DNA from: a virus
Direction: 5' to 3' (one strand)
IMG/VR virus record: IMGVR_UViG_3300025276_000120
Location: 1 to 31,889 of that record
DNA: 31,889 bases
A program made the translations under genes and the position numbers. Positions 4,664 to 31,889 of the stretch are shown here, one piece after another; the first letter of the stretch is position 1; each line of letters starts with the position of its first letter. The notes beneath the pieces are model-generated. The model saw nothing but the letters and a program-made list of their open reading frames with translations, was not told the origin of the DNA and searched no databases.

Positions 4664-7600
4664 TGGCAATTGATTCAGCGCAGTTAAGAATTGATGCTTA
4701 TCTTGCTAGCACAGACATAAGCAATCTTGACGACACTAGGTTAGAAACAGAGCTTAACGATCCTGATGTGATTGTTAACGAACCAATTGTGCAAGAAACA
4801 ATTGTAGAAACTGACCCAATAGCTCCGTCTGAAGATGAGTTGTTTGAAAGAGAAATGCGCGTTCAGTCTTACAACGAAAGTATAAGTTCCCAGGATAATG
4901 ATCTCGGCTACTTAAACTTGCCAGAATATAATCTAAATGCAATGGGAGAGCAGTTAGACCCAGACGTAGATAAAGACGATATTAATTTTGTTCAGGTGCA
5001 AAGTGACCACAACGAAAATCAAATATTAAAAGTATCTGAATTATTATTTACCCCTAACGAAATAAGTTATTTTAAAAAAACGCCAATCGGAATTAGCGAG
5101 GCAGGCAGATTTTTAGATGTTGAAGACTATTTGCCTGCAGGCGGTTTTTATAAAGGATACGAAGCATTAAGTGTTCAAACAATCGCCAATGATATACAAG
5201 AAGGAAAAGATGTTTCTAATAATGATCTAAAAACTTTTAATGATTATTTAAAGAAACATATGGAAGTCCAATTGAGAGGATTCACTTGGGCAGGTGGTGT
5301 TAGATACTACGGTACGCCAATGCCTGCATTCATTGCTGAATTTATGTTTTCTGGTGGTGTAGGAAAAGTAGCGCAAAAAGCTACGACTCAAGCATTAATA
5401 AAAGGTGCAGTTCAAAGTTCAATAGCTGCTTCTGAAAAAATAGCGATAGGTACATTAGGCTACGGTGCAAGAGGGGCGGCTATGACCGTTGCTATGGCAC
5501 CATCGGTTTCACGAACTTATGGACAATTAAGGGTAAACGAACAATTAACTTTAACTGAACAAGGTAGAGCAATATTAAGCGAAGCTGAAGAATCTCCTGC
5601 TATAAGTGTAATGAAAGCATACGCGTACACTTCTGTTGACGTTGTATCTGAAATGACGGGCGCACCACTAAGCCGCGTTATAGCTCCACTAACAAATAGA
5701 ATGGCTAGTAAGGTCTACACTACGGCAACTAGCGCACTGCCTCCAAAAGTAGTAAACGGATTCTTAGACGCGTATCAAAAAATAAAACCAAATGCCGCTT
5801 TGCAAAACGTACTAGACAAAGCAGGATGGCATGGAATGCTAATGGAGCTTGGCGAAGAAAGAGTCGCTGATGTCTTACGAGTACACGCTAACATAGCGTT
5901 TGGTGAGTCGTATACGTTTGACGAAATACTTGATCAAATAACTCCAAGTAAAGAACAATTTTTAATTGAAGCAGGAATCATTGGGGGCTTAAAAACAGCT
6001 TCATCGGCAATAGCAATAGGTCAAAATGTACTGTCAAAAAGAATGTACAACGAAGAAGACATTACATTAGCAACTAGTACGTCAGAAAATGACGTAGAAA
6101 ATTTAGTTGAAGAAAGTTTAAACATTGAAATTGAACCACCAGATGTTAATTCGCCAGAAGCAATTTACACTTTAGAGTCTCAAGAAGCGTTTGAACTTGA
6201 TGAAACAAAGCCGGACTCTGATGTTGATATGGATACGTACGTAGAGTATGAATCTAGTTCGCAGAAGGTGGCAGAAGATCAAGTAAACTCTAAGTTACAA
6301 ACAGCTTATAAGCGTGTTGCAGAATTAAAAAGATTAGCAAAACGCAATAATGACAGATTTGTTGATTGGATTTTAAAAGGTGGTCAACTATCTTATGATC
6401 AGCTATCTAGCATGGGAATTGATGGACTCTCATTAGACTCTGTTAACCAAGCTTTAAAAGGAAAAATTCCTAGAAGACCTTGGATTCGAAATACGAATAA
6501 CCCAAACACTGGCCCTACGCAAACGATAGATCAGTTAACAGAAAGGTACAACAGCGATTTTGTACCATATGATCCTAATATATCTACTGATCAATCTGCA
6601 CAAATTACCAATGAAGAAATGGTAGACATAATTCGTGAGTTTGTTTATGAGCAAGGGTTCAGAGGTCAAACAGGATTCGAAGCAATTATGGATCTTGAGG
6701 TTGCTGCTGAAATATTAGAACTAGAAAATGAAATAGACTTTTTTAGTCAGATGAGTGCGCGAGATGCAGACCTCTATTTTAGTGACATGACTTTAGATTT
6801 ACCCGATCTTGGTAATGCAGATTACAACAATATAAATACAAATATTCCACTTGAAACAGAGATTGATCTAGAAACAATTTATGCAGACAGTGCGCAGGAC
6901 ATAGATCAAGAGCTTATTAATCAAGACATCGATGCAGAGTTGAGAGGGTTTTTGCTTAACTATATGCCAGTGTTGCCACAAATAACTGAGCAAGATGAAG
7001 CAGACATACCAATTCCTAAAATTGATTATAGTGAAAGCAACGCTGATGCAATAAAAACTGCTTGGGTAACTAAGTACTTTGCAATTGATAAACTCGTTTC
7101 AATGTACGAAGGCAAATACGGAGCTATACCTGACAGCTTTAATCCTAAGTTATTGATCAGTGCTTATGGTGGAATTATTGGTCGATTTGAACAGGCAGTA
7201 AAATTTGGAACATTTAAGTTTACCATTGACGGAAAAGCTATTAGAACGGGTCAAGGTTTTAAACCTATTCTTGATATTTTTGACGGATTAATAATTCCAA
7301 TTGAAGGCAATCGAGCGCAAAGAAAATTAGATTTAAATAAGTATTTAATTGCTAGGCGTATACAACAAGATATACAAAATTATGTTAACAAAGAAACTGG
7401 CGAAGATTTAGTTGGCCCAGTGCAAGAGCGCAGAGCATCTAAAGAACAACAGCTTCAGGCTGATTTAGATTTGGTGTCGCTAGAAATTAAGTACGGAGAC
7501 AGTATAGATTACTTTGATCGTACTGCTAGAGAGTTGTATGCATATCAAAGACGCAATTTAGAATTGCTTGTTGATTCTGGAAACATGTCTCGCGATAGGT

Positions 7601-9795
7601 ACAAACAAATTATTGAAGATAATCCTAACTACATACCGTTTCATCGCGTTATGTTAGATACATTATTTGATAAAGATGGAAATGTATCAAAAGAAACTGC
7701 TCAAATTTATAAAATCCTTGGAGCGGAAGAAGCTAACATAATGGAAGAGACAGGGATTTTGTCTCAAAAGCAATATGACATGATTGCTAAAGAAGATCCT
7801 TCGTTAGCTAGTCAATTAAATGACATGATTGAAATCACTAAGGCCCCAAGTGCTATCAAAGGATTGTTTAACAAAGCAACATCAAGGTACATAACACAAA
7901 GGTTAACTGGGTCTCAAAGAGCCATTAAGGATCCGCTGTATTCTATAATGCAGTCTACATACAATGTAATGAATATTGCGGCACGAAACGATGTAGCACA
8001 GTCAGTAGCTAAGATGGCAGATCTTATGCCAGAACAAATACAACGTATTATGCCAACTACATTACGAGATTCAAAAAACAGAATTGTAAAAGATGAAGAC
8101 GGCAAGACTATTATGGAACTCGTTACTAACGACAATTCCATAGAAGTATATGTTGATGGTCAACGACAAGCATACGAGGTTGCAAAACCTATACGCGAAG
8201 CATTGAACATGCAAGACATCAAAAGCATGGCTATGTTTGAAAAGATCTTTGTTACACCAATTACTTTATTTAGAATTGGAACAACAATTACACCTGACTT
8301 TATATTAAGTTTGTTTTTTAGAGATCAGTTTGTTGCGGCATTGCAGTCTAAAACTGCGGCTAATCCTGTAATTGATTTACCTATGGCAATATCAGCCATG
8401 ATAAACAAAACTAATTTGTACCATGAATGGCAAGCTTCTGGCGGCCAAATGACGAACTACATGGATCTGTCCGATCAAGGTATTGAAAAAGCATACGAAG
8501 ATATTATGGACGACAGTTCATATTTAAACAAAGTAATAAAGTCTTATGGCTTAAAACCATTAAGAGACATGCAAAGAGCATTCGATTCAGTTACTAGAAT
8601 ATCGATTTACAATGCTAATGTACGAGCAGGAAAGTCTAGTAGAGAAGCATCTTATGAAGCAAGAGAAGCATTAGCAGACTTTCAAAAAGCAGGAACACAG
8701 GCAGAAAAAGTTAATAGATATCTTCCATTCTTTAACGTAGCAATTCGTGGTACGGATGTAATGCAAAGGTCTGCAAGAGAAAATCCTGCTAAATTTGCTT
8801 TGATAGGTCTGAGTACTATTACTTTGCCAAGCTTAATATTAACTGGTTATTATTTATTTGGGGCTGATGAAGAAAGTCGTAGAGCATATTTAGCATTGCC
8901 GCAATCTGATAAAGATTATAATTGGATGTGGCGCAATGAAGATGGCACTTGGAGTGCAGTTCCGAAACCATACGCCCCAGGATATTTGTTTGGCACGATG
9001 CCACAGAAGTACCTTGAATGGATGTATGCGACACATCCTAAAGATGCTAAAGAGTTCTTTGTTGATTTTATACAAGGAGCTACAACGAGTGTAAGCCCTA
9101 TTCAAAGCATTCCTGCAGTAGCACCACCGCCTCTTAAAACTTGGCTAGAAATAAAAAGCAATTATTTGTTTTATAACGAAGGTGCAGTTATCCCAACGTA
9201 TAAAGTAAATATGGAACCGGATCTGCAAGCTAGTAGATTTGGAAGTTCTACTGCTACATTAATCGGTGACAAATTTAATATGTCGCCAATAGTTGTAGAC
9301 AAAATAATTAAAGATGTATTAGGTAATGCAGGTCAGTATGGATTAGATGGAGCAGAATTACTTTCCGACAAATTAAAAGATGCTAGAAATGAGCCTATTC
9401 CTGCTGACCCAAGTAAATTGCCAAGGATTGTAAGAAGATTTATTAAACAAGATCCTTTGTTAGCTAGATCTGAAACTGAAAATGCATGGTGGGATACATA
9501 TTCTATTGTACAAACAAAAATAAATTCGTTAAGGGAATATGAGAAACTTCCCGATTTAAAACAAGCGGATGAATATGAAAACAAATTTAAGACTATTTTT
9601 GATCAGCAATATCAAATGCTAGACAACGGTAAACTAATATCGCAATTGTATCGTGAACGTAACGAAATAATAGATGATGCTAATTTAACCGTTGAAGAAA
9701 AAGATAAACAGTTAGAAAGAATTAACGTTGAAAAAAATGAAGTTATTACAGAATCACTAAACGAATTTAACAATGCCATACAGGATGCAAACTAA
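4663..9795 (+). CDS. large internal virion / polyvalent protein, gp16-like, LPD38-type
   Basis: 1710 aa from the ATG at 4663, which overlaps the previous stop; a TTG at 4648 in the same frame would add five residues but has no advantage. Several hydrophobic or amphipathic stretches lie at about residues 215-290. An acidic middle follows, then a long region that I recognise from LPD38-type large polyvalent proteins: NYIPFHRV near residue 990, NIAARNDVAQSVAKM near 1105, KVNRYLPFFNVAIRG near 1350, and a transmembrane-like ITLPSLILTGYYLF near 1387. By position it is the gp16-equivalent ejection protein delivered into the cell with the DNA. I see no obvious transglycosylase motif at the N-terminus, unlike T7 gp16. 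The tail end is coiled-coil-like. Confidence 0.75.
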   Translation: MAIDSAQLRIDAYLASTDISNLDDTRLETELNDPDVIVNEPIVQETIVETDPIAPSEDELFEREMRVQSYNESISSQDNDLGYLNLPEYNLNAMGEQLDPDVDKDDINFVQVQSDHNENQILKVSELLFTPNEISYFKKTPIGISEAGRFLDVEDYLPAGGFYKGYEALSVQTIANDIQEGKDVSNNDLKTFNDYLKKHMEVQLRGFTWAGGVRYYGTPMPAFIAEFMFSGGVGKVAQKATTQALIKGAVQSSIAASEKIAIGTLGYGARGAAMTVAMAPSVSRTYGQLRVNEQLTLTEQGRAILSEAEESPAISVMKAYAYTSVDVVSEMTGAPLSRVIAPLTNRMASKVYTTATSALPPKVVNGFLDAYQKIKPNAALQNVLDKAGWHGMLMELGEERVADVLRVHANIAFGESYTFDEILDQITPSKEQFLIEAGIIGGLKTASSAIAIGQNVLSKRMYNEEDITLATSTSENDVENLVEESLNIEIEPPDVNSPEAIYTLESQEAFELDETKPDSDVDMDTYVEYESSSQKVAEDQVNSKLQTAYKRVAELKRLAKRNNDRFVDWILKGGQLSYDQLSSMGIDGLSLDSVNQALKGKIPRRPWIRNTNNPNTGPTQTIDQLTERYNSDFVPYDPNISTDQSAQITNEEMVDIIREFVYEQGFRGQTGFEAIMDLEVAAEILELENEIDFFSQMSARDADLYFSDMTLDLPDLGNADYNNINTNIPLETEIDLETIYADSAQDIDQELINQDIDAELRGFLLNYMPVLPQITEQDEADIPIPKIDYSESNADAIKTAWVTKYFAIDKLVSMYEGKYGAIPDSFNPKLLISAYGGIIGRFEQAVKFGTFKFTIDGKAIRTGQGFKPILDIFDGLIIPIEGNRAQRKLDLNKYLIARRIQQDIQNYVNKETGEDLVGPVQERRASKEQQLQADLDLVSLEIKYGDSIDYFDRTARELYAYQRRNLELLVDSGNMSRDRYKQIIEDNPNYIPFHRVMLDTLFDKDGNVSKETAQIYKILGAEEANIMEETGILSQKQYDMIAKEDPSLASQLNDMIEITKAPSAIKGLFNKATSRYITQRLTGSQRAIKDPLYSIMQSTYNVMNIAARNDVAQSVAKMADLMPEQIQRIMPTTLRDSKNRIVKDEDGKTIMELVTNDNSIEVYVDGQRQAYEVAKPIREALNMQDIKSMAMFEKIFVTPITLFRIGTTITPDFILSLFFRDQFVAALQSKTAANPVIDLPMAISAMINKTNLYHEWQASGGQMTNYMDLSDQGIEKAYEDIMDDSSYLNKVIKSYGLKPLRDMQRAFDSVTRISIYNANVRAGKSSREASYEAREALADFQKAGTQAEKVNRYLPFFNVAIRGTDVMQRSARENPAKFALIGLSTITLPSLILTGYYLFGADEESRRAYLALPQSDKDYNWMWRNEDGTWSAVPKPYAPGYLFGTMPQKYLEWMYATHPKDAKEFFVDFIQGATTSVSPIQSIPAVAPPPLKTWLEIKSNYLFYNEGAVIPTYKVNMEPDLQASRFGSSTATLIGDKFNMSPIVVDKIIKDVLGNAGQYGLDGAELLSDKLKDARNEPIPADPSKLPRIVRRFIKQDPLLARSETENAWWDTYSIVQTKINSLREYEKLPDLKQADEYENKFKTIFDQQYQMLDNGKLISQLYRERNEIIDDANLTVEEKDKQLERINVEKNEVITESLNEFNNAIQDAN

Positions 9796-12700
9796 TGACA
9801 GTTCCAACTCAAGTAACTAGAAATGATGCAATAGCTATTGCCGGTCAAGTAGCTTATGACTTTGGATTTGAAGCTTTAACGGATGCTGACCTTCAAGTGT
9901 ACGTTAATGGACTGCCAGAGTCAGGTGGATATACTATTGCGCGTAACATAGCTCCGCAAATTGGTGGCACTGTTACATTCTTCGCCCCATATATTCCTAC
10001 AGCAGGGCAAAATGTAAGCCTAGTTTTAGAGATGCCTCTTGATCGCACTACTGATTATCAGAACAGCGGTGACTTTTTAGCAAGTGCAGTTAACGCTGAC
10101 TTTGACAAAATATATATTGGGGCAATTCAAAACGAAAACTTTTTGGATAGAACACTACGACTGCAAAATGTAGATCCTACGCCTAGCAATGGCGAAGAAT
10201 ATCCTATGGCATTGCCACTTACTGATGCTCGGAAAGATAGAATATTGGCATTCAACAATATTGGTGTACCGATTGCAGGCCCAAAGACAAGTGACATAAC
10301 AGATGGTCTAAGTCTTAAATCAACGTTAACAAACGGCAACGTTACTGGCGGCACTGACATTGATATTAGTGTTGGCGATTCAATCACTACATTAAATAGT
10401 GGAATAAAAATTAATCGTTTTTATAACGAGGGCGATTTTGCATCAAACAGTGCAACAGGATTAGCCACACAACAGTCTATTAAAACGTACGTTGATTCAG
10501 CCGTAGGGCTTTTCGATAGTTTATCCGAAGTACTTGCTAACGGAAATACTTCTGGCGGCAATGATATCTCTATGAGTTCCGGTGACAATATTATATTTGC
10601 AGGAAGTAGTGGCCAATTAAAGATTGGATCCGATCCTCGGGTAAATATTGATGCTACCGGTGTTGATTTATTTGGTGCAGTATTCTTGAAAAGCCAAATA
10701 GGTCAACCTAATAGTACTCTAGGTTTTAGCCAAGGTGCTACTGTTAACGAATTTAGCATTGATGGAACATTATCAGGAAATAGTGATACTTCACTTCCTA
10801 CAGAAAAAGCCGTAAAAACGTACGTTGATAATGCTGTCCCTGCGGCAGAGTCTTTAGCCAATACATTAATAGCAGGTAATGTTACGAGTGGCACTAATAT
10901 TGAAGTAAGTACTAGCGATGCAGTACAGTTTGGTACTAGCGTTTCTAATAACTTAAAAATTAGCCATGATGGAACAGTAGGCTTAATTAAAGAAATTGGG
11001 TCAGGCTATTTAAAGATACAAGGAGATCAGTTAGATATAAGAGGTAATGATGGAACAAGCGGAATAACTATTTCTCCTGTACCAAGTCAAACCTATAATG
11101 ATATTACGTTTCAAACTGGGCCGTCAGGATCAGTACAATTATATGTTACTGCTGATGGTGTTGCTTTTTCTACAGGTCAAAGCGTTCAATCTATTCAAAC
11201 AAGTACAGCTTTAAGCACTAGCAACACAACCTTGTCTACAACTGGCGCAATTAAGTCTTATGTAGATACAGCGGTTGCAGGACTACCTGTTGGAGACATA
11301 ACAGCAATTACCGCTACTGCCCCTATTACAGGTGGTGGCACATCGGGTGCTGTTAGTATAGGAATAAACCAAGCAACCACAAGTCAAAGTGGATACTTAT
11401 CTAATACAGATTGGAATACTTTTAATAGTAAATCCACATTTTCTGGTGCTTATGCAGATCTTACTGGCAAGCCTACTATACCTACTAATAACAATGAGCT
11501 TATTAATGGTGCAGGGTATATAACATCGGCAGGTGTTCCTAGTTCTGTCACTTCAGTAAGCGCAACTGCTACTGGAGGAATTACTGTAACTGGTTCGCCA
11601 ATTACTACAAGTGGTACCTTAGCGTTTGCTTTAGATTCCACTGTAGTTAAAACAACTGGCACTCAAACAATTTCAGGCAAAACAATGAGTGGCGTTATTC
11701 TTGACGGTAACGTTAATGGAACTGGTGTTTTAGATAGCACTCAATTTCCTACAGGTGCTGACAACAATAATATTGCGTCAGCATTAGCTGTAAAAACATA
11801 CGTCGATGCGCAAGTAGGCACCTCTGATACTCTTAAAGAAGTTTTGGTTAACGGAAACGTAACTGATGGCTCAAATTTAGTAATTAGTTCAGGCGATGCA
11901 ATTTCTATTGGCGGTCAAAACAGTACTGATACAGTTACAACTATCGACGCTAGTTCTACTGATACAGATCTTGCAACTGCATTAGCAATTAAAACTTACG
12001 TTGACTCTTCTGTACCTTCCGCAGAATCTTTAAAAAATACTTTGGCCGCTGGAAATATTAGTGACGGCACTGATTTAATAATGAGTACTGGCGATGATTT
12101 AACAATAAGTGCAGGATCTTCTTTAGATATTAAGACAGCGGGATTGTTTAAATTAAACAACGCTCAAGTATCAGACATTGTAAACGTTATTGATGCTAGT
12201 ACTAGCTCTGCGGATTTAGTAACTGGAACAGCAGTTAAAAACTATGTCACTTCTGTATTACCTTCTTCGCAATCTTTGTCAGCTACATTAGCTGTAGGAA
12301 ATAGTACTGGCGGTACTGATATAGAGTTAAGTCCACTCGATACTTTTAACGTTCTTACTAGCGGTAGTGTTTCAAAAACCGTAATAAGTCGTCGTCTAGG
12401 TCTTCCTTCTATTGGCAACATAACTTTGATGGGCGACACTGACGGAGCTTTGTTTGAAGCTGATGAAGTTCATTATAGTAGTGAAGGTAAAAAACGACTT
12501 CAGTTTATTGCTAGCGGTGCTACAAGATTTATATCCGAATCAACTGGCGCGTTTGATTTTGAAAATACTAGCGGCCAAAGCATAATACAATTTGCTAATA
12601 ATGGTGCCATTAGCATTATGAGTCCAAACCCAGTGCCTGCTAACAGTGCTATCGCTGTTGGTGGCAACGTTGTAATTGATAACTTAAGAAACATTAAAAA

Positions 12701-15700
12701 CGTACCTGTTATCTATAACAATAATTCTGGACTGCAAGCAGTAGATTTAAACAACTCTGACTCACTTATTTTTAATACACCAGACGGTCACTCTGCATTA
12801 TTGTTAAGCGGTGGTTCTTTCGATACTAACTATTACAGTAACGAAACGCATTACTTTAGAGGAATAGATGGTTTAGATATTCATGCAATCATTAATACTT
12901 CGGGAATAAGAAGTCTTGGTAATCTCCAGTTAGGTAGTTCAACCGCAGTTACTAGCATATTAGACGAAGACGACATGGCATCTGATAGTAGTGTTGCATT
13001 AGCTACTCAACAATCCATTAAAGCCTATGTTAATGCTCAAGTAGGCACCGCTGATTCTTTATCTGAGGTATTGGCTAACGGTAATACAACTGGTTCAAAC
13101 AATATCCTTTTTGGTGCCAACAACAAAGCTATATTTAATAGTAGTTTTGAAATCTACAGGGATGCAAGCAACGCTATAATTTCTGAAACTGGCGCAGGAA
13201 GTTTGATTCTACGAGGCACAAACCTCATTCTGCAAAGCGATGATAATGACGCGTACATTCAATGTATAGAGAATGGTTCGGTTACACTTTATCAACAAAT
13301 AGGAGGTAGTTCAGCCCCTAGATTAAATACTACTACGGTTGGTGTAAATGTTACTGGCACAATGGAATCAGATAGCTTACTTCTCGGAAGCGGTGCTACA
13401 GTTACTGAAATTTCAACTGGCACATCGTTAAGTACCAGTAACACAACCCTATCTACTACAGGTGCAATTAAATCTTATGTAGACACTGCAATATCTGGTG
13501 GTGGATTTGGAACTGTAACTTCGGTTGCTTCTACTATTGGTGGAAATGCTATAGCTGTAGGTGGAAGTCCAATTACATCGAATGGCACATTGGCATATAC
13601 ATTCCAAGGATCCGCAAGTCAATACATTAATGGTGCAGGTAACTTAGTAACTTTCCCAACTGATCAACAAGGTGTAACTTCAGTAGCATCTACAGTAACA
13701 GGAAATGCATTAACAGTTAGTGGATCGCCAGTAACTTCAACCGGAACATTAGCATACGCTTGGGCAGGTAATGCATCGGAATATATAAACGGTGCAGGTA
13801 ATTTAACTGCTTTCCCATCTATTCCTAGTGTTGGAAACGGCGTATTAACTATAGCCACTTCAGGTACAGTAAGTGGTAGTGGTACGTTTACTGCTAATCA
13901 ATCAGGCAATGCCACAATTACTATAGTTGGAGACGCGTTTCCATCTATACCAACTGTTAACGATTCGACTATTACATTTACTGCGGGTAACAAATTATCC
14001 GGTGGTGGAACTATTACTTTAAATCAAAGTAATGCTGAAACTGTTAGTTTTGGATTGGCTAGCAACAATGTATCTCAGTTTACTAATGACGCAGGGTATC
14101 TAACAGGTGTTACTGGATTTTTACCATTAAGCGGAGGCACACTTACAGGTGGTTTATTAGGAACTACAGCTAGTTTCTCGGGTACAACTTCATTAAACAA
14201 TTCATCTATTAACTTTGGTTTTGCTTCAGGGTCTGCTGAAATTAAACCGAAGGGTAGCTCTGGTTCTCTGTCAGCAGGCATAGATCTGTTCCGTACAAAC
14301 AGTTCAGGCTTTACTCTTCTAGGGTTGAGAATTTTGCCAGAGGGAGGTCTCAGCGTTAGTACTGGTGCTGTCACTATGGACGGCCTTCTTGAAGGTGTTA
14401 CTTCGCTTCAAATGGGTGGTGCGCTAACTGGTGCAAGTAGTATTCAGGTATCTGGAACAACTATTAGTTCTATCTCAACAAGCACATCATTAGGTACTAG
14501 TAACACAAGTCTATCCACAACTGGCGCAATTAAATCTTATGTCGATACGGCTGTAGCAAGTGTACCAGTAGGAGACATTACTAACATTTCTGTAAGTTCA
14601 CCAATTACAGGTGGAGGTTCATCTGGTTCTATAGGAATAGGAATACAAGTTGCTACTGCATCACAAGCAGGATTTTTATCTGCAGCTAACTTTAATACTT
14701 TTAATAACAAGTCTAATTTCTCTGGTGCTTACGCAGACCTTACCGGTAAACCAACCATTCCAACCAACAACAACCAGTTAACAAACGGTGCAGGCTACAC
14801 TACTAACACAGGTACAACTACTGCTTCTAACACGCAAACATTTACTAATAAGTCGGGTAATATTAGTCAGTGGACAAATAACTCGGGATACTTAACAAGT
14901 GTTACTGGATTCCTGCCGCTAACTGGCGGCACACTTACGGGTAATTTAACGGGAACAACTGCAACTTTTAACAACACTGTGACGTTAAGCGGTTCTGGCC
15001 TTGTTAATATCACCAAAGGTTTAGGGGTCTATATCTCTGCCAATTTAAGCGTTGCCGGACTCATCTTTAACACTAATGGTGGTGCTGTTGAAGTATCAGG
15101 TGATTTAAATATTAACTCTGGTGGTTTAACGGGCGCAAATAGTATTGGGCTGTCTGGAGTAACTGTTAGCTCCATTTCAACAAGCACAAGTTTGGCAGGA
15201 GCATCCAATACACAACTCGTAACAGCGTTAGCAGTTAAAACTTATGTTGATAACAGTCCTGTAGGTGACATAACTGGTGTCGCTGTTACTAGTCCACTTA
15301 CTGGAGGTGGAACTTCTGGAAATGTAACGGTAGCAATACAACAAGCAAGCGGTTCGCAAGCAGGATTTTTAAGCGCGGCTAACTGGACTACATTTAATAA
15401 TAAATCTACCTTCTCCGGTGCGTATTCTGATCTTACTGGAAAACCAACGATCCCCACCAACAACAATCAATTAACTAATGGTGCCGGATATATTACATCG
15501 AGTGCAGTTCCTACTAATAACAACCAGTTAACTAACGGTGCAGGTTATACAACTAACACTGGAACAGTAACAAGTGTAACAATTAATGGTAATGCTTATT
15601 CAGCTAGTGGAAGCACTGGAGTAACGATTGCACCACAGGGTAATGCGACACAATATATAAATGGTCAAGGTAACTTAACTACATTCCCATCTATTCCCTC

Positions 15701-16841
15701 AAGTGTAACCAACAATAACCAATTAATTAATGGTGCAGGCTATACAACTAATTTAGGTTTTGCTAGATACAACGCAGGTACAACTTACAGTAGTTACACT
15801 AATTTACAAAGATTCTATTCAAACACTAACATGGCTACAAGTGCAGGTAGTCAGTCAAGTTTAGAATGTTTCTCTAATGGATCAGGTAATGATGCCTTTA
15901 TGACATTCCATGTAGGCGGTGATTACGCTACCTACCTTGGATTAGATGGTGGCACTAACAAACTATCTACAGGCGGTTGGTCAGCAGGTGCGGTTTCACA
16001 TGCTATTTTCCACGAAGGGAACGTTCCGACTTATTCCCAACTTGGATCAATGCCATATTCAAATTTAAGTGGCACACCAACTATTCCTACTAACAACAAC
16101 CAGTTAAGTAATGGCGCAGGGTATATAACTTCAGCTCCAACCGTTTATAACGCGGCAATCCAATTTAACGCTAACGCTAATATGACAGGTGGAGGTTTAA
16201 TTACTCTTAATCAGTCAAATAGTGGATCAGTTAATTTTGATTCATTTACTGAAGATAATATTACTAATCCATCGTGGACAGGATCTTTAAACCAAAATGG
16301 TACAGGTAGCGGAGTCGCCCAAGAAGGTCGTATTGATAATGGTAATGGAGAAACAGTATTTTTAGGAATCAATTCTTCAGGTAGACTTTGTGGCGCAGAA
16401 TATGAAACTTCTATTACTATGAGCCTTCAGCAATTTAATAATTTAGGTTCAAATACTGACACCACAGTAATTCCGGGTCGAGCAGGATACATAGTAATAC
16501 CACTTGAAAGTATGTATATTATGAAATGTTCAGAGCAACTTGACCCTGCCTCTTCTATTGGTAATGATCTTCCTAACCTAATTCAAATAAGGCAATTTGG
16601 GCCAACCTCTTCTCAATTTACTGTATCTCAAATTACAGGTCAAAATATACTTGACGCAAGTGTTACTGGTACATCACTTATACAAAGAGATATTCCTTTA
16701 GTCCAAAGGGCTTATAAAGAAAACTCGCCTACACTCTTTAGGTTTGGAGGTTCAGGTGGTGGTTGGGATACAGCGGCCGGCTTTACATCAATGACGATCT
16801 TGTTAAAATATAGACTAATTAAAACGAGTGATTACAACTAA
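9795..16841 (+). CDS. giant repetitive tail fibre protein
   Basis: 2348 aa, about 7 kb. Residues 1-115 form a T7 gp17-like attachment domain (DADLQVYVNG, then LDRTTDYQNSGDFLASAVN). The shaft consists of Ser/Thr/Gly/Asn-rich modules: seven GN-x-T-x-G-x-D-I units, ten A-I-K-x-Y-V-D units, four DLTGKPTIPTNNN-type units, two FLPL-x-GGTLTG units and three ITGGGTSG units. Near residues 1990-2075 is a YSNTNMATS to HEGNVP block like those near the tips of T4-type fibres. The last 200 residues are non-repetitive beta-rich sequence, probably the receptor-binding tip. No intramolecular chaperone domain is recognisable. The start overlaps the previous stop (TAATG). Confidence 0.85.
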   Translation: MTVPTQVTRNDAIAIAGQVAYDFGFEALTDADLQVYVNGLPESGGYTIARNIAPQIGGTVTFFAPYIPTAGQNVSLVLEMPLDRTTDYQNSGDFLASAVNADFDKIYIGAIQNENFLDRTLRLQNVDPTPSNGEEYPMALPLTDARKDRILAFNNIGVPIAGPKTSDITDGLSLKSTLTNGNVTGGTDIDISVGDSITTLNSGIKINRFYNEGDFASNSATGLATQQSIKTYVDSAVGLFDSLSEVLANGNTSGGNDISMSSGDNIIFAGSSGQLKIGSDPRVNIDATGVDLFGAVFLKSQIGQPNSTLGFSQGATVNEFSIDGTLSGNSDTSLPTEKAVKTYVDNAVPAAESLANTLIAGNVTSGTNIEVSTSDAVQFGTSVSNNLKISHDGTVGLIKEIGSGYLKIQGDQLDIRGNDGTSGITISPVPSQTYNDITFQTGPSGSVQLYVTADGVAFSTGQSVQSIQTSTALSTSNTTLSTTGAIKSYVDTAVAGLPVGDITAITATAPITGGGTSGAVSIGINQATTSQSGYLSNTDWNTFNSKSTFSGAYADLTGKPTIPTNNNELINGAGYITSAGVPSSVTSVSATATGGITVTGSPITTSGTLAFALDSTVVKTTGTQTISGKTMSGVILDGNVNGTGVLDSTQFPTGADNNNIASALAVKTYVDAQVGTSDTLKEVLVNGNVTDGSNLVISSGDAISIGGQNSTDTVTTIDASSTDTDLATALAIKTYVDSSVPSAESLKNTLAAGNISDGTDLIMSTGDDLTISAGSSLDIKTAGLFKLNNAQVSDIVNVIDASTSSADLVTGTAVKNYVTSVLPSSQSLSATLAVGNSTGGTDIELSPLDTFNVLTSGSVSKTVISRRLGLPSIGNITLMGDTDGALFEADEVHYSSEGKKRLQFIASGATRFISESTGAFDFENTSGQSIIQFANNGAISIMSPNPVPANSAIAVGGNVVIDNLRNIKNVPVIYNNNSGLQAVDLNNSDSLIFNTPDGHSALLLSGGSFDTNYYSNETHYFRGIDGLDIHAIINTSGIRSLGNLQLGSSTAVTSILDEDDMASDSSVALATQQSIKAYVNAQVGTADSLSEVLANGNTTGSNNILFGANNKAIFNSSFEIYRDASNAIISETGAGSLILRGTNLILQSDDNDAYIQCIENGSVTLYQQIGGSSAPRLNTTTVGVNVTGTMESDSLLLGSGATVTEISTGTSLSTSNTTLSTTGAIKSYVDTAISGGGFGTVTSVASTIGGNAIAVGGSPITSNGTLAYTFQGSASQYINGAGNLVTFPTDQQGVTSVASTVTGNALTVSGSPVTSTGTLAYAWAGNASEYINGAGNLTAFPSIPSVGNGVLTIATSGTVSGSGTFTANQSGNATITIVGDAFPSIPTVNDSTITFTAGNKLSGGGTITLNQSNAETVSFGLASNNVSQFTNDAGYLTGVTGFLPLSGGTLTGGLLGTTASFSGTTSLNNSSINFGFASGSAEIKPKGSSGSLSAGIDLFRTNSSGFTLLGLRILPEGGLSVSTGAVTMDGLLEGVTSLQMGGALTGASSIQVSGTTISSISTSTSLGTSNTSLSTTGAIKSYVDTAVASVPVGDITNISVSSPITGGGSSGSIGIGIQVATASQAGFLSAANFNTFNNKSNFSGAYADLTGKPTIPTNNNQLTNGAGYTTNTGTTTASNTQTFTNKSGNISQWTNNSGYLTSVTGFLPLTGGTLTGNLTGTTATFNNTVTLSGSGLVNITKGLGVYISANLSVAGLIFNTNGGAVEVSGDLNINSGGLTGANSIGLSGVTVSSISTSTSLAGASNTQLVTALAVKTYVDNSPVGDITGVAVTSPLTGGGTSGNVTVAIQQASGSQAGFLSAANWTTFNNKSTFSGAYSDLTGKPTIPTNNNQLTNGAGYITSSAVPTNNNQLTNGAGYTTNTGTVTSVTINGNAYSASGSTGVTIAPQGNATQYINGQGNLTTFPSIPSSVTNNNQLINGAGYTTNLGFARYNAGTTYSSYTNLQRFYSNTNMATSAGSQSSLECFSNGSGNDAFMTFHVGGDYATYLGLDGGTNKLSTGGWSAGAVSHAIFHEGNVPTYSQLGSMPYSNLSGTPTIPTNNNQLSNGAGYITSAPTVYNAAIQFNANANMTGGGLITLNQSNSGSVNFDSFTEDNITNPSWTGSLNQNGTGSGVAQEGRIDNGNGETVFLGINSSGRLCGAEYETSITMSLQQFNNLGSNTDTTVIPGRAGYIVIPLESMYIMKCSEQLDPASSIGNDLPNLIQIRQFGPTSSQFTVSQITGQNILDASVTGTSLIQRDIPLVQRAYKENSPTLFRFGGSGGGWDTAAGFTSMTILLKYRLIKTSDYN
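10309..13120 (+). repeat. seven degenerate coding repeats, SL-x3-L-x2-GN-x-T-x-G-x-D-I type
   Basis: Units of about 25 residues start near 10309, 10518, 10849, 11826, 12024, 12271 and 13053. Each has S-L-x-x-x-L followed by G-N-x-[TS]-x-G and a D-I/L-x-x-S turn. They usually sit directly after an A-I-K-x-Y-V-D unit. They are protein-level repeats; at DNA level they have drifted. Confidence 0.8.
10460..15260 (+). repeat. ten A-[IV]-K-x-Y-V-[DNT] coding repeats in fibre shaft
   Basis: Copies lie near 10474, 10798, 11230, 11770, 11970, 12220, 13000, 13450, 14512 and 15217. Three carry an almost identical longer unit, SNTTLSTTGAIKSYVDTA or a close variant, near 11220, 13440 and 14500. They are likely trimeric shaft nodes. 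Confidence 0.8.
11439..16137 (+). repeat. four DLTGKPTIPTNNN-x-L-x-NGAGY-type coding repeats
   Basis: Copies begin near 11439, 14718, 15411 and 16057; the third has a doubled NNNQLTNGAGY, and a partial copy lies near 15706. DNA of these copies is more alike than the other repeats (for example GGTGCTTA[TC]GCAGA in the first two), suggesting recent duplication or recombination. Confidence 0.75.
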
Positions 16842-26722: not shown

Positions 26723-26884
26723 ATGGCGCAAGATTTACTAAAAACTTTGGACAAAGAAACAAGAGATCGACATTTCCCTGAAAAGAATGGTGGGAAAGGA
26801 GATCATCCAAGAAAAGCAAACAAGCGTACCCGAGAAGCTTATGCTTCAAACTACGACAAAATTAAATGGAACCCATGCAAATAG
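26723..26884 (+). CDS. small conserved protein overlapping terminase start
   Basis: 53 aa, basic: MAQDLLKTLDKETRDRHF, then a Gly/Lys-rich centre, a KANKRTREAYASNYDKIKWN segment and the end PCK. AAGGAT precedes the ATG. It overlaps the large terminase gene by 19 bases. Short basic proteins with an N-Y-D-x-I-x-W-type end ahead of the terminase recur in my memory of podophage genomes; a role in packaging is possible but unproven. Confidence 0.6.
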   Translation: MAQDLLKTLDKETRDRHFPEKNGGKGDHPRKANKRTREAYASNYDKIKWNPCK

Positions 26885-28332
26885 AATACGAGCTAATGGC
26901 ACAAGGGCAAGTGCTACAAGACTTTACAGATTGCAGGGCGCGTAACTCATTTATAATGGGGCCGCTCGGTTCTGGCAAGACTGTTCAATGCATTTTAAAA
27001 CTTTTTGATTTGATGGTAGAGCAAGAGCCTGTTAAAGATAGACATAACAAAAATTACAACGTGCGGCTATCTAGAATTATCGCGGCAAGAAATACTTACT
27101 CTGAGCTTTTCTCCACAACAATTAAAGATTGGTTAGAAATACATGGAGAGTTAGGAGATTTTAAGCAAGGTAACAAAGAACCGCCAACACACTATATAAG
27201 GTTTAAGTTAGAAGATGGTACTTATGTACATTGTGACATTATATTTATTGCTTTTGACCGTCCTGAACACGTTAAAAAAGCAAGGGGTATTCAGACAACT
27301 TGGGTGTGGCTTAACGAAACAAAAGAACATGCAAAGGCTGTTTTGGATATGCTTGATTTGCGCCATGGTCGTTATCCATCCAACAAAGAGGGGGCTACCC
27401 CAACGCACCATGGAATCATTGGCGATAGTAACGCACCAGACGAAGATCATTGGTACTTTAAATTAGCAGAGATAGAGCGTCCGGACGGTTGGGCATTCCA
27501 TAGACAAGCAGGTGGTGTAATTCCAGACGGGGAATCTTGGAAAGTAAACGAAGATGCAGAAAATTTAAACAATTTGCCTTCAGATTATTACAAGCGTGGA
27601 CTGCAAGGTAAAACAAATGATTGGATCAAGGTTAATTTAGCTAATGAATATGGGTTTGTGTCAAATGGAAAGCCTGTACATCCTATGTACACTGATTCCG
27701 TTCATTGCCAACATATGGATTTCGTGCCTGATAAATCTACCCCTATCATTCTTGGCTTTGACTTTGGGCGTACCCCAGCTTGTGCATTTTTACAGCGAAC
27801 AAGTATTGGAAGGTGGATATGTTTTGATGAATTGGTCGAGTCCGACTCTGGAGCAGTAGACTTTGCGCCTAGTTTAAAAAGATATATTGAAGTACATTAC
27901 CCTAATTATAATTTTAGAGGATGGGGCGATCCCTCTGGAAGCAATAAAAACCAATCAAATTCGGAAACTCCTTTCCAAATACTTAGGGCGGCAGGTATAC
28001 CCTGTGTTCCAACCAATAGTAATGACCCGTTAAAGCGCAGAGCATCTTTAGAAACGCCTATGAAAGAGATGTGCATGGATGGAAAGCCTAGATTTATAGT
28101 GTTGCCAAGAGCATCTATGATTAGAAAAGGTTTGCAAGGAGGGTTTTGTTATAGAAGAATCCAAAAATCTGGCGAAAGGTACACTGACGAACCAGATAAA
28201 AACGAATATTCGCACCCAGTAGAAGCTTTAGAGTACGCATTGCAAGGCGAAGGAGAAGGAAGAAGCGCATTAAGTCGTATGGGAAACTTTGACAAGCCGC
28301 ATAACGCCAAGATTAATGTAAGTGTCTTCTAA
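26866..28332 (+). CDS. terminase large subunit
   Basis: 488 aa. The ATPase has Walker A GPLGSGKT at residues 32-39 and a Walker B-like region TTWVWLNETKEH around 145-155. The nuclease domain begins near ILGFDFGRTPACAF (about 295-308), whose Asp is a metal ligand, and includes GWGDPSGS (about 350). It drives DNA into the prohead and cuts at the end of packaging. The start is at 26866; ATG at 26875 is an alternative. The end overlaps the next gene by 11 bases. Confidence 0.92.
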   Translation: MEPMQIEYELMAQGQVLQDFTDCRARNSFIMGPLGSGKTVQCILKLFDLMVEQEPVKDRHNKNYNVRLSRIIAARNTYSELFSTTIKDWLEIHGELGDFKQGNKEPPTHYIRFKLEDGTYVHCDIIFIAFDRPEHVKKARGIQTTWVWLNETKEHAKAVLDMLDLRHGRYPSNKEGATPTHHGIIGDSNAPDEDHWYFKLAEIERPDGWAFHRQAGGVIPDGESWKVNEDAENLNNLPSDYYKRGLQGKTNDWIKVNLANEYGFVSNGKPVHPMYTDSVHCQHMDFVPDKSTPIILGFDFGRTPACAFLQRTSIGRWICFDELVESDSGAVDFAPSLKRYIEVHYPNYNFRGWGDPSGSNKNQSNSETPFQILRAAGIPCVPTNSNDPLKRRASLETPMKEMCMDGKPRFIVLPRASMIRKGLQGGFCYRRIQKSGERYTDEPDKNEYSHPVEALEYALQGEGEGRSALSRMGNFDKPHNAKINVSVF

Positions 28333-28660: not shown

Positions 28661-28908
28661 TGGGGGGATCATCTAAACCACCTAAGCCTACGCAAGAACA
28701 ATTAGCCGCTGAAACAAGAGCGCAAAAAAGACTTGATGATGAAACTGAAAAAAACGAAAGGCGACTAAAAGCTTTGGCTAGAGGTAAAAGTGGTTCTCAA
28801 TCTTTGTTAGCGCAAGGAGGGGGTGGAGGAACTTCAGCCTCAAGAGCAAACGCTCCGGCAGGTATGCCAACGAATAACGGTTTTATGGGTTATAGGGGTG
28901 GAAGATGA
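28660..28908 (+). CDS. small Gly-rich protein upstream of portal
   Basis: 82 aa. Starts GGSSKPPKPTQEQLAAE, continues as a charged helix (RAQKRLDDETEKNERRLKAL) and ends in a Gly/Ser/Ala-rich tail (QGGGGGTSASRANAP to GYRGGR). Gly/Pro-rich short proteins in this slot are common in podophages; their role in the head is not known. The start overlaps the previous stop (TAATG) and its stop overlaps the portal start (ATGA), so expression is coupled. Confidence 0.6.
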   Translation: MGGSSKPPKPTQEQLAAETRAQKRLDDETEKNERRLKALARGKSGSQSLLAQGGGGGTSASRANAPAGMPTNNGFMGYRGGR

Positions 28909-30476
28909 AGATACCTAGACAACTAGGAACTTTACAAGACCTGCAAAACAGAGAACAGCAAGCATTTGACACTAACTCTTCTTGGCATAGTTTACTAGAT
29001 AGTGCGTATGAATATTTTTTGCCGAATAGAAACTTGTTTAACGGTTATGTTGCAGGCCAACAAAAAATGGATCGAATATTTGATTCGACTGCTATCGAGG
29101 CTATACAACAAGGCGCAAGTAAATTACAAGAAAACATTGCACCTATTTGGTCTAACTGGGCAACCTTTGAGCCAAGTGAATCAACAATTAGAGAAATAGA
29201 AAATGAAGACTATGGGGTTAGCATTGAAGACATTAGAGCTAATCTTCAAGAGCAGGCCGTTATTGTCTTTGATTATATTAATAGATCTAATTTTGCTACT
29301 CAGTTTTTTGAACATGCCCTTGATTTACTAATAGGAACTGGAACGCTTAGAATTGACGAAGACAATGATAACGATTACCCAATAATTTTTAATGCTATTC
29401 CGCAGAAAGGAATTGCTTTTGAAGAAGGCCCGTACGGAAATATTGAAACCCATTGGCGCAAGTTTGATGTCAAAGCAAGAAACCTTAAAAGAATGTGGAA
29501 GGGTTTTAAGCCGTCAAACACCGTTGCGAATTTAATTGAAAATCAACCAGAAGCTAATGTTTATTGTTGCGAAGGTGTAATCTTTATTCCGGAAGATAAA
29601 ACATACTTTGGCTGTGTATGGGTTACCGGTGAAGACAGACTAAGTTGGACGCAAGATTTTGGTGATTCGAGTCCTTGGGTTACAGGTAGATATTCTAAAG
29701 TATCAGGAGAAATTCGTGGTCGCGGCCCTGCTATTCAAGCATTGCCTGATGTTAAATCGTTAAATAAAGTAAAAGAATTTGTGTTGCAAAAAGCAGCAAT
29801 AGATCTTTCTGGAATGTACACAGCTACTGACGATGGTGTTACTAATCCATATAATATTACTATAAGTCCTGGAGTTGTTATTCCAGTTGGTTCTAACAAC
29901 ACTGCTAATCCGTCAATTCAAAGACTTGATACTGCTACAAATTTACGATTGGTTGAGTTTGAAGTGCAAGAATTACAACAAACTATTAAACGCACTTTGT
30001 TTAACGACATGCGAGATCCCACTGGCCCCGTAAGATCTGCAACAGAAATTGCAATTGACTCAAGAGAATTAGCAAAACGTATAGGGTCTGCTTTTGGTCG
30101 TTTGCAAACAGAAGTGCTAGTGCCAATATTGACTAGAGTTGTACACATACTTACTAGAAGAGGTTTGTTACAACCTATTAAATTAAATGGAAGAGAAATT
30201 GATATTAAATTTTTGTCACCATTAGCAAAAGCTCAAGATGGGGAAGACATTATTAATGTTCAACAAGCGGTTCAATTCGTGTTGCAAAATGCAGGCCCAG
30301 ATCAATCTAAACTAGCATTCAAATTAGAAGATTTTGGTACATGGGTAGCAGGTAAAACTGGTATGCCTGAAGAGTTAGTTCGTAGCCCAACAGAAAAGGC
30401 CGCCGCACTAGAAGCCGCCGCTAATGCGGCTATGCAAGGAATTGACCCAGTATCTCAGCCGACGCAACTACAATGA
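28905..30476 (+). CDS. portal / head-tail connector protein (T7 gp8-like)
   Basis: 523 aa, close to T7 gp8 (536 aa). Motifs: WHSLLDSAYEYFLPNRNLF near residues 26-44, DSTAIEAIQQGASKLQENI at about 61-79, and WVTGRYSKVSGEIRGRGPAI with LPDVKSLNKVKEF around 265-300, the conserved core of head-tail connectors. Twelve copies form the ring at the capsid vertex through which DNA is pumped and to which the tail attaches. Near the C-terminus is an Ala-rich helix (KAAALEAAANAAMQG), as is usual. It overlaps the next gene as ATGA. Confidence 0.92.
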   Translation: MKIPRQLGTLQDLQNREQQAFDTNSSWHSLLDSAYEYFLPNRNLFNGYVAGQQKMDRIFDSTAIEAIQQGASKLQENIAPIWSNWATFEPSESTIREIENEDYGVSIEDIRANLQEQAVIVFDYINRSNFATQFFEHALDLLIGTGTLRIDEDNDNDYPIIFNAIPQKGIAFEEGPYGNIETHWRKFDVKARNLKRMWKGFKPSNTVANLIENQPEANVYCCEGVIFIPEDKTYFGCVWVTGEDRLSWTQDFGDSSPWVTGRYSKVSGEIRGRGPAIQALPDVKSLNKVKEFVLQKAAIDLSGMYTATDDGVTNPYNITISPGVVIPVGSNNTANPSIQRLDTATNLRLVEFEVQELQQTIKRTLFNDMRDPTGPVRSATEIAIDSRELAKRIGSAFGRLQTEVLVPILTRVVHILTRRGLLQPIKLNGREIDIKFLSPLAKAQDGEDIINVQQAVQFVLQNAGPDQSKLAFKLEDFGTWVAGKTGMPEELVRSPTEKAAALEAAANAAMQGIDPVSQPTQLQ

Positions 30477-30763: not shown

Positions 30764-31483
30764 ATGTCAGAAGAACTTCAACAGACCGATGCTGTAGAAC
30801 CAGTACGCGATACTCTGTTAGATAGTGCTGAACCAGTATTAGAGCAAGGGCAATATTATTTAAGCGAAGGAATTAAGGGTGTTGGTGAAAAGCCTGATTG
30901 GTTAAACGATAGATATAAAAGTGTATCAGACCAAGCTAAAGGGTACGCTGAATTAGAAAAGAAATTTGGTGGGTTTAAAGGATCTCCAAAAGATGGTTAT
31001 ACTCCTCCCGAAGGAATTGAATCATCCGATGCTTTATATCAAGAGCTAGAATCTTTTGCTACAAAAACTAATATGAGTGCTGATGCGTTTGGTGAAGCTT
31101 GGGAATTGTTATCAACTCAAAACGAAGTTCAAGAAGAATACGATCAAAAAGTAGAGATTAATAAGCTAGGCGAAAGAGCGCAAGAGCGTATAAAAAACGT
31201 CGAAGGTTATATGAAAAATAATTTAAGCCCTGAAGATTATGAAATTGCACAAGGGTTAGTTACTACTGCCGATGCAATTGAACTAATTGAAATGATGGTT
31301 AATGCAACTACTGAAGCAAAACTTCCAATTGATGGCGGTGTACATCCAGAAGGTTTAACGTGGGCAGACGTAGAAGTTGAGATGTTTAGGAAAGATGATA
31401 CGGGCCAATTGTTAAGAATTACAAGCCAAGCGCATGAACAAAAACTAAAAAAAATGATGGCTACGTTTGAGAATCGTGCCTAA
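30764..31483 (+). CDS. capsid assembly scaffolding protein
   Basis: 239 aa, acidic, helical and without Cys. KPDWLNDRYKSVSDQAKGYA (about residues 43-62) and FGGFKGSPKDGYTPPEG are typical of scaffolds in T7-like podophages, and the basic-helical end (EQKLKKMMATFENRA) would contact the capsid protein. It guides prohead assembly and then leaves. AGGAATATATT precedes the ATG. Placement directly before the capsid gene is standard. Codon use is of the common AT-rich type (TTA and AGA), in contrast to the next gene. Confidence 0.85.
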   Translation: MSEELQQTDAVEPVRDTLLDSAEPVLEQGQYYLSEGIKGVGEKPDWLNDRYKSVSDQAKGYAELEKKFGGFKGSPKDGYTPPEGIESSDALYQELESFATKTNMSADAFGEAWELLSTQNEVQEEYDQKVEINKLGERAQERIKNVEGYMKNNLSPEDYEIAQGLVTTADAIELIEMMVNATTEAKLPIDGGVHPEGLTWADVEVEMFRKDDTGQLLRITSQAHEQKLKKMMATFENRA

Positions 31484-31512
31484 TTGTAAAATCTTCTGTA
31501 AAAAGGTATAAT
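31484..31512 (+). promoter_or_regulatory. strong sigma70-like promoter of the capsid gene
   Basis: TTGTAA (31484-31489), exactly 17 bases, then a perfect TATAAT (31507-31512). The expected transcript starts near 31519. It begins immediately after the scaffold stop codon, giving the capsid gene its own transcript on top of operon read-through. This is the best promoter match in the window. Confidence 0.75.
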
Positions 31513-31518
31513 CCAAAT

Positions 31519-31641
31519 ACTGGATACCTATATCTATAGCCCAGTAAATTTAGGTTGATTGACTGACCATTTTTACTGGGTACTCAGTTCCAACCTTGAA
31601 AAAACTATTTTAATTTATTACTCTTTTTCGAGGAAATTCTT
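31519..31641 (+). promoter_or_regulatory. structured leader RNA of capsid gene, possible translational switch
   Basis: Three pairings can be drawn. A: 31540-31548 with 31572-31580, nine perfect pairs. B/C: 31552-31557 with 31591-31596, continued by 31561-31566 with 31584-31589, 12 pairs including one G-U. D: 31594-31603 with 31624-31633, ten pairs with one G-U, covering the GAGG of the ribosome site at 31630-31635. D shares bases 31594-31596 with B, and A uses the loop of C, so the structures compete. No T-run follows, so this is not a terminator. Found by eye, without energy calculation. Confidence 0.5.
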
Positions 31642-31889
31642 ATGAGTAAGTTTCTATCGTCCGTAGCAGTCATTGAGTTTGACTCTATGGTAAAACACGC
31701 ATATGCCAACAAAGGGCTACTTAAGCCTTCTGTTACGCTACGCAACAATGTAGTAGGTGAAACCTACAAATTCCGTCTAATGGGTCGTGGCCTAGCTAAC
31801 CAGAAGTCTACTTCTGATCTAGTAACTCCTATGGATATCAATCACCAATTCAAAGTCGCTACTCTGCAAAACTGGAATGCTCCAGAATA
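31642..31889 (+). CDS. major capsid protein, 3' truncated by window edge
   Basis: The first 82 residues are visible. It starts at ATG 31642 with GAGGAA six bases upstream. FDSMVKHAYANKG, then NNVVGETYKFRLMGRGLA and SDLVTPMDINHQFKVATLQN, follow the N-terminal pattern of major capsid proteins of marine T7-like podophages, an HK97-type fold. Position after scaffold agrees. Codon use differs sharply from other genes: of eight Leu codons, six are CTA and none TTA; the three Arg codons are CGC or CGT with no AGA. This fits selection for very high expression. Confidence 0.85.
   Translation, partial: MSKFLSSVAVIEFDSMVKHAYANKGLLKPSVTLRNNVVGETYKFRLMGRGLANQKSTSDLVTPMDINHQFKVATLQNWNAPE

Follow-up and report, generated by a model that had tools for sequence, protein, structure and literature searches.

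In DNA phages, expression of the major capsid gene is commonly held to depend on nothing more than a strong promoter and a strong ribosome site. Control at the leader RNA of a structural or abundant phage protein has precedents in the autoregulation of the phage P22 scaffolding protein, in the repression of replicase by the RNA-phage coat protein acting at its operator, and in the leader pseudoknot of T4 gp32. The capsid leader described here would share the site of control with these virion-protein-controlled leaders, but is predicted to be a two-state element with a built-in anti-SD and not a simple operator. With translational riboswitches it has in common a sensor region followed by an anti-SD that serves two exclusive helices. 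Unlike them, it contains few conserved unpaired bases that could form a pocket (AUAC, xAC), precedes a structural and not a metabolic gene, and has no Rfam match.

Leaders with transient folds have been described in other systems. In the account of the MS2 maturation-gene leader, a stable fold hides the ribosome site and a transient fold admits ribosomes (van Meerten et al. 2001, as summarised in PMC6733600). As far as that account goes, the likeness to our locus would be that of a phage 5' leader in which a stable fold hiding the ribosome site is set against a transient open fold. However, MS2 is an RNA phage whose leader forms a cloverleaf with a long-range partner, whereas the capsid mRNA of this DNA phage is predicted to have two complete, conserved folds that rely on an anti-SD close by and on a copy strand at the 5' terminus; the two show no sequence or structural relation. 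The toxin mRNAs hok and AapA3 (the latter of H. pylori) fold co-transcriptionally under the guidance of a metastable hairpin at the 5' end or of alternating SD/anti-SD pairings, and compensatory changes back the transient hairpins (PMC6733600). These mRNAs also involve toxin silencing, 3' processing and antisense RNA, none of which was seen in the capsid leader. A glutamine riboswitch proposed from sequence in marine phages such as Melnitz (PMC9004378) is a different RNA at a different gene (tmRNA), unrelated by Rfam search.

The window, i.e. the whole 31,889-nt stretch of viral DNA that was analysed (IMG/VR record IMGVR_UViG_3300025276_000120), carries its leader between a putative scaffold gene, whose stop codon ends at 31483, and the ATG of the major capsid gene at 31642. 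The product of the latter was recognized as a phage capsid protein through the full-length relative L003 (PF19821 Phage_capsid_2, E 2.5e-65, and phrog_3437). PHROG/Pfam matches are present for the portal (28905-30476) and capsid ORFs, and no PHROG or Pfam match was found for the ORFs at the expected positions of the large terminase (26866-28332, 488 aa) and the scaffold (30764-31483, 239 aa). The same record, 32 kb in size, also contains two adjoining giant ORFs, 4648-9795 (1715 aa) and 9795-16841 (2348 aa).

A sigma-70-type promoter directly follows the putative scaffold gene, with TTGTAA at 31484-31489, a 17-nt spacer and TATAAT at 31507-31512. Its position predicts a transcript 5' end near 31519, which is the first base of a helix that we call P1. 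The distance from the end of the -10 element to this base is exactly 6 nt in 93 of 106 distinct leaders and 7 nt in 11 more, and this constancy suggests that P1 starts at or beside the first transcribed base. No intrinsic terminator was found in the leader region. The promoter, helix P1 and the hairpin P0 that caps it were absent from the initial annotation of this DNA. The features of the region are collected in Table 1.

Table 1. Predicted features of the capsid leader and its borders (window coordinates)
Feature	Position	Strand	Remarks
Sigma-70-type promoter, TTGTAA-17-TATAAT	31484..31512	+	10/12 consensus matches; predicted +1 ~31519
P1 5' strand, ACUGG	31519..31523	+	Pairs 31541-31545; rival of A 3' arm for those bases
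AUAC bulge of 5' hairpin	31524..31527	+	AC unpaired in both folds; A9, C10 invariant (alignment A3)
Hairpin P0	31528..31539	+	Caps P1; sequence varies, covaries
Stem A 5' arm	31540..31549	+	31541-31545 double as P1 3' strand; covariation
B 5' arm, AGGUU	31552..31556	+	Open fold: pairs ACCU (anti-SD); closed fold: GGUU 31553-31556 pairs GACC
C 5' arm	31561..31566	+	Compensatory types GC/AU at several pairs
Hairpin E 3' arm, GACC	31565..31568	+	With GGUU 31553-31556, in A loop; from MFE; nearly invariant
Stem A 3' arm	31572..31580	+	Imperfect direct repeat of P1 5' strand
Linker UAC	31581..31583	+	AC invariant (alignment A3)
C 3' arm	31584..31589	+	Covariation
B 3' arm, AACCU	31592..31596	+	CCU 31594-31596 = anti-SD, common to B and D
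D 5' arm (anti-SD + extension)	31594..31603	+	Masking tests
D 3' arm with ribosome site GAGG 31630-31633	31624..31633	+	Masking tests
Major capsid gene start	31642..31887	+	PF19821 / phrog_3437; extends beyond window end

The initial annotation had placed three pairings in this leader, and all of its coordinates, including those of the shared CCT (31594-31596) and of GAGG, agree with the sequence. Stem A joins CCCAGTAAA (31540-31548) to TTTACTGGG (31572-31580). Helix B joins AGGTTG (31552-31557) to CAACCT (31591-31596) and helix C joins GACTGA (31561-31566) to TCAGTT (31584-31589), so that B/C totals 12 bp. The masking stem D joins CCTTGAAAAA (31594-31603) to TTTTTCGAGG (31624-31633) with one G-U pair. 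In addition, ACUGGAUAC (31519-31527) and ACUGGGUAC (31575-31583) form an imperfect direct repeat, which corresponds to the P1 5' strand and the A 3' arm. The two copies track each other across groups, with AC invariant in both, and these AC dinucleotides of the bulge and the linker are among the few invariant unpaired bases in alignment A3. The layout common to the relatives begins at +1 with the P1 5' strand, an AUAC-like bulge, P0, the A 5' arm and AGGUU. After a few bases it continues with the C 5' arm, CC, the A 3' arm, xAC and the C 3' arm, and after a few more with AACCU, a variable platform, the ribosome site and AUG.

The fold of region 31519-31660 has an RNAfold MFE of -33.7 kcal/mol, compared with -22.6 +/- 3.2 for 200 dinucleotide shuffles (z -3.47), none of which was as good as the native leader; z ranged from -1.96 to -4.96 in 12 distinct relatives. 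The MFE structure of the window RNA consists of A, the GGUU/GACC hairpin in the A loop, and D. As the arms of D are A-rich and U-rich, they could pair by composition, and an AT-rich leader might thus be structured by chance. The z value of -3.5, the covariation of all helices and the presence of a masking structure that beats shuffles in every tail refute this reading, to which we give a negligible probability. The initial annotation had named two outcomes that would speak against it, arms neither covarying nor conserved in relatives and folding energies like those of shuffled leaders, and neither was observed.

Covariation was scored in A3, an ungapped, fixed-register alignment of 68 distinct leaders. 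In A, 98.4% of cells were paired, with 131 changed on both sides and two-sided changes at 8 of 10 pairs (slid controls 22-42%), and in B/C 97.5% were paired, with 45 changed on both sides and two-sided changes at 6 of 11 pairs (slid controls 15-47%); the percentages for A and B lean upward, because their register was chosen by pairing. The registers of P1 and C were not chosen in this way. P1 had 99.1% of cells paired, 77 changed on both sides and 4 of 5 pairs with two-sided changes (slid controls 9-54%), and P0 had 88% paired and 38 changed on both sides, all three counted (first) pairs being two-sided. In a tree-based test, for which a capsid protein tree of 102 rows was used, a standard pair survived 30 of 32 inferred changes for P1, 67 of 73 for A, 16 of 17 for B and 15 of 16 for the first five pairs of C. 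In many leaders the P1 5' strand simply copies the corresponding segment of the A 3' arm (ACUGG, GUCGG, AUCGG). In about 18 distinct leaders the two differ, and most of these P1 strands still pair with the A 5' arm (e.g. GUCAG/CUGAC, GUUGG/CCGAC, or AUCGG/CCGGU where A has ACUGG).

The platform downstream of B differs in length and sequence from group to group, and the anti-SD:SD pairing is kept in nearly all of them. The D arms are CCUUGAAAAA/UUUUUCGAGG, CCUUUAGAAAAG/CUUUUUUAGAGG or CCUCA/UGAGG in some groups, and CCUUAGAGU/ACUUUGAGG with an inner hairpin or CCUACAAAAC/GUUUUGAGG with a bulge in others. When CCU and AGG were fixed and the bases between them shuffled, the masking structure was stabler than the shuffles in all 71 distinct tails (all z < -1, mean -3.2), with a mean contiguous masking helix of 7.6 bp against 3.6 in shuffles. 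Leaders L312, L350 and L346 have an altered anti-SD (CUUC, CCGC) and a weaker or changed SD pairing; they count against the proposed switch, but may also serve as natural test cases of it. An extra stable hairpin (GAGGC/GCCUC or GUGUUUCA/UGAAACAU) was observed within the masking stem of L084, L102, L122, L132 and the L091/L526 groups, where it brings the anti-SD and the SD together across a longer distance.

The alternative helices predicted around the capsid ribosome site are conserved, with compensatory changes in the arms of A, B/C and D alike. As in an anti-SD switch, the SD would be sequestered by a local anti-SD, and a conserved alternative helix would take up the latter. Competing structures of this kind, with B/C opening the site and D closing it in the manner of an expression platform, had been proposed for the window, and both the covariation and the masking hairpin in 71 of 71 tails support this.

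The shared bases define which helices are compatible. P1 and A are mutually exclusive, because both use 31541-31545, and so are B and D, which both contain CCU 31594-31596. The GGUU/GACC hairpin, in turn, overlaps bases of both B and C. This leaves two compatible sets: A, GGUU/GACC and D (closed) and P1, P0 and B/C (open). Based on our observations, we suggest that the capsid mRNA leader is probably a bistable translational switch. In the closed form, A would be accompanied by the loop hairpin GGUU/GACC, occupying the B 5' arm, and by D, with CCU laid over GAGG, giving low translation. In the open form, the RNA would begin with P1, capped by P0, in which the first transcribed bases are paired with the outer half of A's 5' arm, and B/C would replace the loop hairpin and take CCU, which would block D and free GAGG. 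The two forms would be interconverted by strand exchange, eased by the near-identity of the 5' strand and the A 3' arm. The 5'-terminal P1 may, in the open fold, also shield the mRNA 5' end. We infer that the folds alter translation, which is the usual consequence of anti-SD pairing, and that the leader would be closed by default and opened by a folding window or a bound factor. A default-closed switch would be unexpected for the most abundant virion protein.

In the nascent RNA, P1 could form first, the two folds would be nearly equal in energy up to the end of B, and the closed one would be favoured once the ribosome site has been made. For RNAs ending just after B, the open fold minus the closed one came to +2.2 +/- 1.9 kcal/mol in 80 distinct sequences, 66% being within 3. 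All 94 full-length leaders tested were computed to prefer the closed fold at temperatures from 4 to 37 C; in this data set the rows of L531, L559 and L560 are invalid and are to be ignored, since their open-fold energies are wrong owing to a generic C constraint that misfits them. Prefix folding gave P1 as the first helix formed. In L526 the open fold was the MFE structure from about nt 78 to about nt 120, before D exists. In the window RNA A prevails as soon as its own 3' arm is made, and the open fold would need kinetics or a factor. The open fold is hence the MFE structure before the SD is made in some lineages only.

These energies bear on two further readings. An RNA thermosensor with cspA-like refolding, one of the options listed in the initial annotation, would suit alternative folds at a ribosome site in phages of marine hosts. 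However, the sign of the closed-open difference was constant between 4 and 37 C in all 94 leaders, the mean change being only about 2 kcal/mol; the computed preference for the closed fold throughout this range disfavours a thermosensor, which we consider highly improbable. The second is a folding-delay timer that uses neither ligand nor protein, in which each new mRNA would be briefly open and then permanently closed, as has been proposed for the MS2 maturation leader. Such a timer, which we hold to be somewhat unlikely, agrees with the early formation of P1, the near-equality of the folds before D and the closed end state. On the other hand, the A 3' arm precedes the 3' arms of C and B and can displace P1 fast by starting from the inner half of the A 5' arm, which P1 leaves free. 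Fast closing of the most heavily used mRNA would moreover be wasteful, and a timer has no need of the invariant unpaired AC bases.

A different arrangement is a permanently open pseudoknot of A and B/C, acting as a 5' mRNA stabiliser or a roadblock to decay, with D and P1 as by-products of folding. Compact pseudoknots typically have short, near-constant linkers, like CC and xAC here, and unpaired bases that do not vary, and a crude rigid-helix model makes A, B and C together geometrically feasible. The same model does not uphold the earlier argument that the linkers are too short for A and full B/C. The alternation of A with B/C, which that argument was meant to support, stands on the firmer basis of the competition between P1 and A. 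P1 covaries although it cannot coexist with A, and D, which has its CCU in common with B, is kept in every group even though its sequence changes, so that a permanent pseudoknot seems unlikely to us. The energy model leaves out pseudoknots, and covariation does not separate coexistence of A and B/C from their alternation; as the geometry allows both, the open form of the proposed switch may itself be a pseudoknot that keeps A.

The distribution of the element was followed by searching IMG/VR with capsid queries, which yielded several hundred loci. The full signature lies directly upstream of the capsid start codon in 350 loci with 101 distinct leaders, a set which includes duplicates of one contig and was drawn from loci with capsids like those of the window's group. 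The exceptions were nine loci cut by the contig end and L238, a distant Vibrio phage; L507, whose layout was misparsed, was left out of the later counts. Practically all close relatives that could be checked thus have the predicted element ahead of their capsid gene, and the phages bearing this leader of about 120 bases are a large, uncultured, marine group. Among the 120 matches listed in a motif scan of IMG/VR, 47 were structurally valid, and in all of these this capsid gene followed at a distance of 108-142 nt. When bacterial genomes of GTDB were scanned in the same way, no credible case was present among the 118 matches listed, and one of them, L390, was discarded as a single chance 7-bp case.

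A covariance model found one strong copy per record in 15 of 15 members, window included, and none in seven isolates and three records of the MEP301 clade. The isolates with related capsids that lack the element are SI2, MEP301, CKB-S2, 1.254.O, EXVC031P Hodr, HTVC010P and HTVC028P, and the capsid region, when compared as DNA with 50,697 isolated phages, gave no match. A looser pseudoknot descriptor had produced false matches in the MEP301 clade and was replaced by the stricter signature.

With respect to what opens the proposed switch, a factor that recognizes the 5' hairpin or the repeats with AC is a serious candidate, to which we give a little less than an even chance. It would most likely be a phage or host protein, because the element goes together with the capsid gene and the invariant AC is never paired. 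A pure folding-delay window on new mRNA comes close behind. A small ligand is an unlikely opener, and any other cause, temperature included, is less likely still. Protein control could take the form of autoregulation or coupling, in which free capsid, scaffold or another virion protein would bind either the 5' hairpin or the ACUGG(A/G)UAC repeats and shift the fold balance, matching synthesis to assembly. The occurrence of the element once per genome, solely before this capsid gene, and the invariance of AC in both repeats speak for such control. P0 and most arm sequences vary freely, however, and a sister clade with a related capsid has a different leader RNA, and we regard this as a tentative possibility.

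At the gathering score, neither the window nor any of 15 relatives matched an Rfam 15 family; with relaxed thresholds the best E was 0.29, to eukaryotic snoRNA/miRNA models. In the open-licence literature searched, we found no described capsid-leader element, and the statement of the initial annotation that no element of this kind is known in capsid leaders is supported by the Rfam result. Judging from sequence comparison, capsid production in these phages appears to be under an RNA switch of a previously undescribed type. A deeply conserved two-state RNA before the capsid gene suggests that a widespread group of marine phages regulates capsid synthesis at translation, which simple reporters built on the named helices could test. 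Were a virion protein the signal, assembly would be linked to synthesis, and if kinetics alone sufficed, DNA phages would have in this leader a natural counterpart to the timer of MS2. For synthetic biology it might offer a compact switch, both folds of which are documented by covariation.

The MEP301-like sister clade mentioned above (L561-L640, L235), whose capsids are about 40% identical, has a different, likewise structured capsid leader in place of this element, and no Rfam match was found for that leader. Although this is a speculation that we consider rather doubtful, the element of the window's group might represent a new RNA family that senses an assembly-related signal (free capsid or scaffold) through its 5' hairpin and repeats and opens or closes capsid translation in response, and the second, unrelated leader RNA of the sister clade might answer the same problem. 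The latter is situated some 145 nt ahead of the capsid start codon and has 19 predicted pairs, 14 of which show compensatory changes in 24 sequences.
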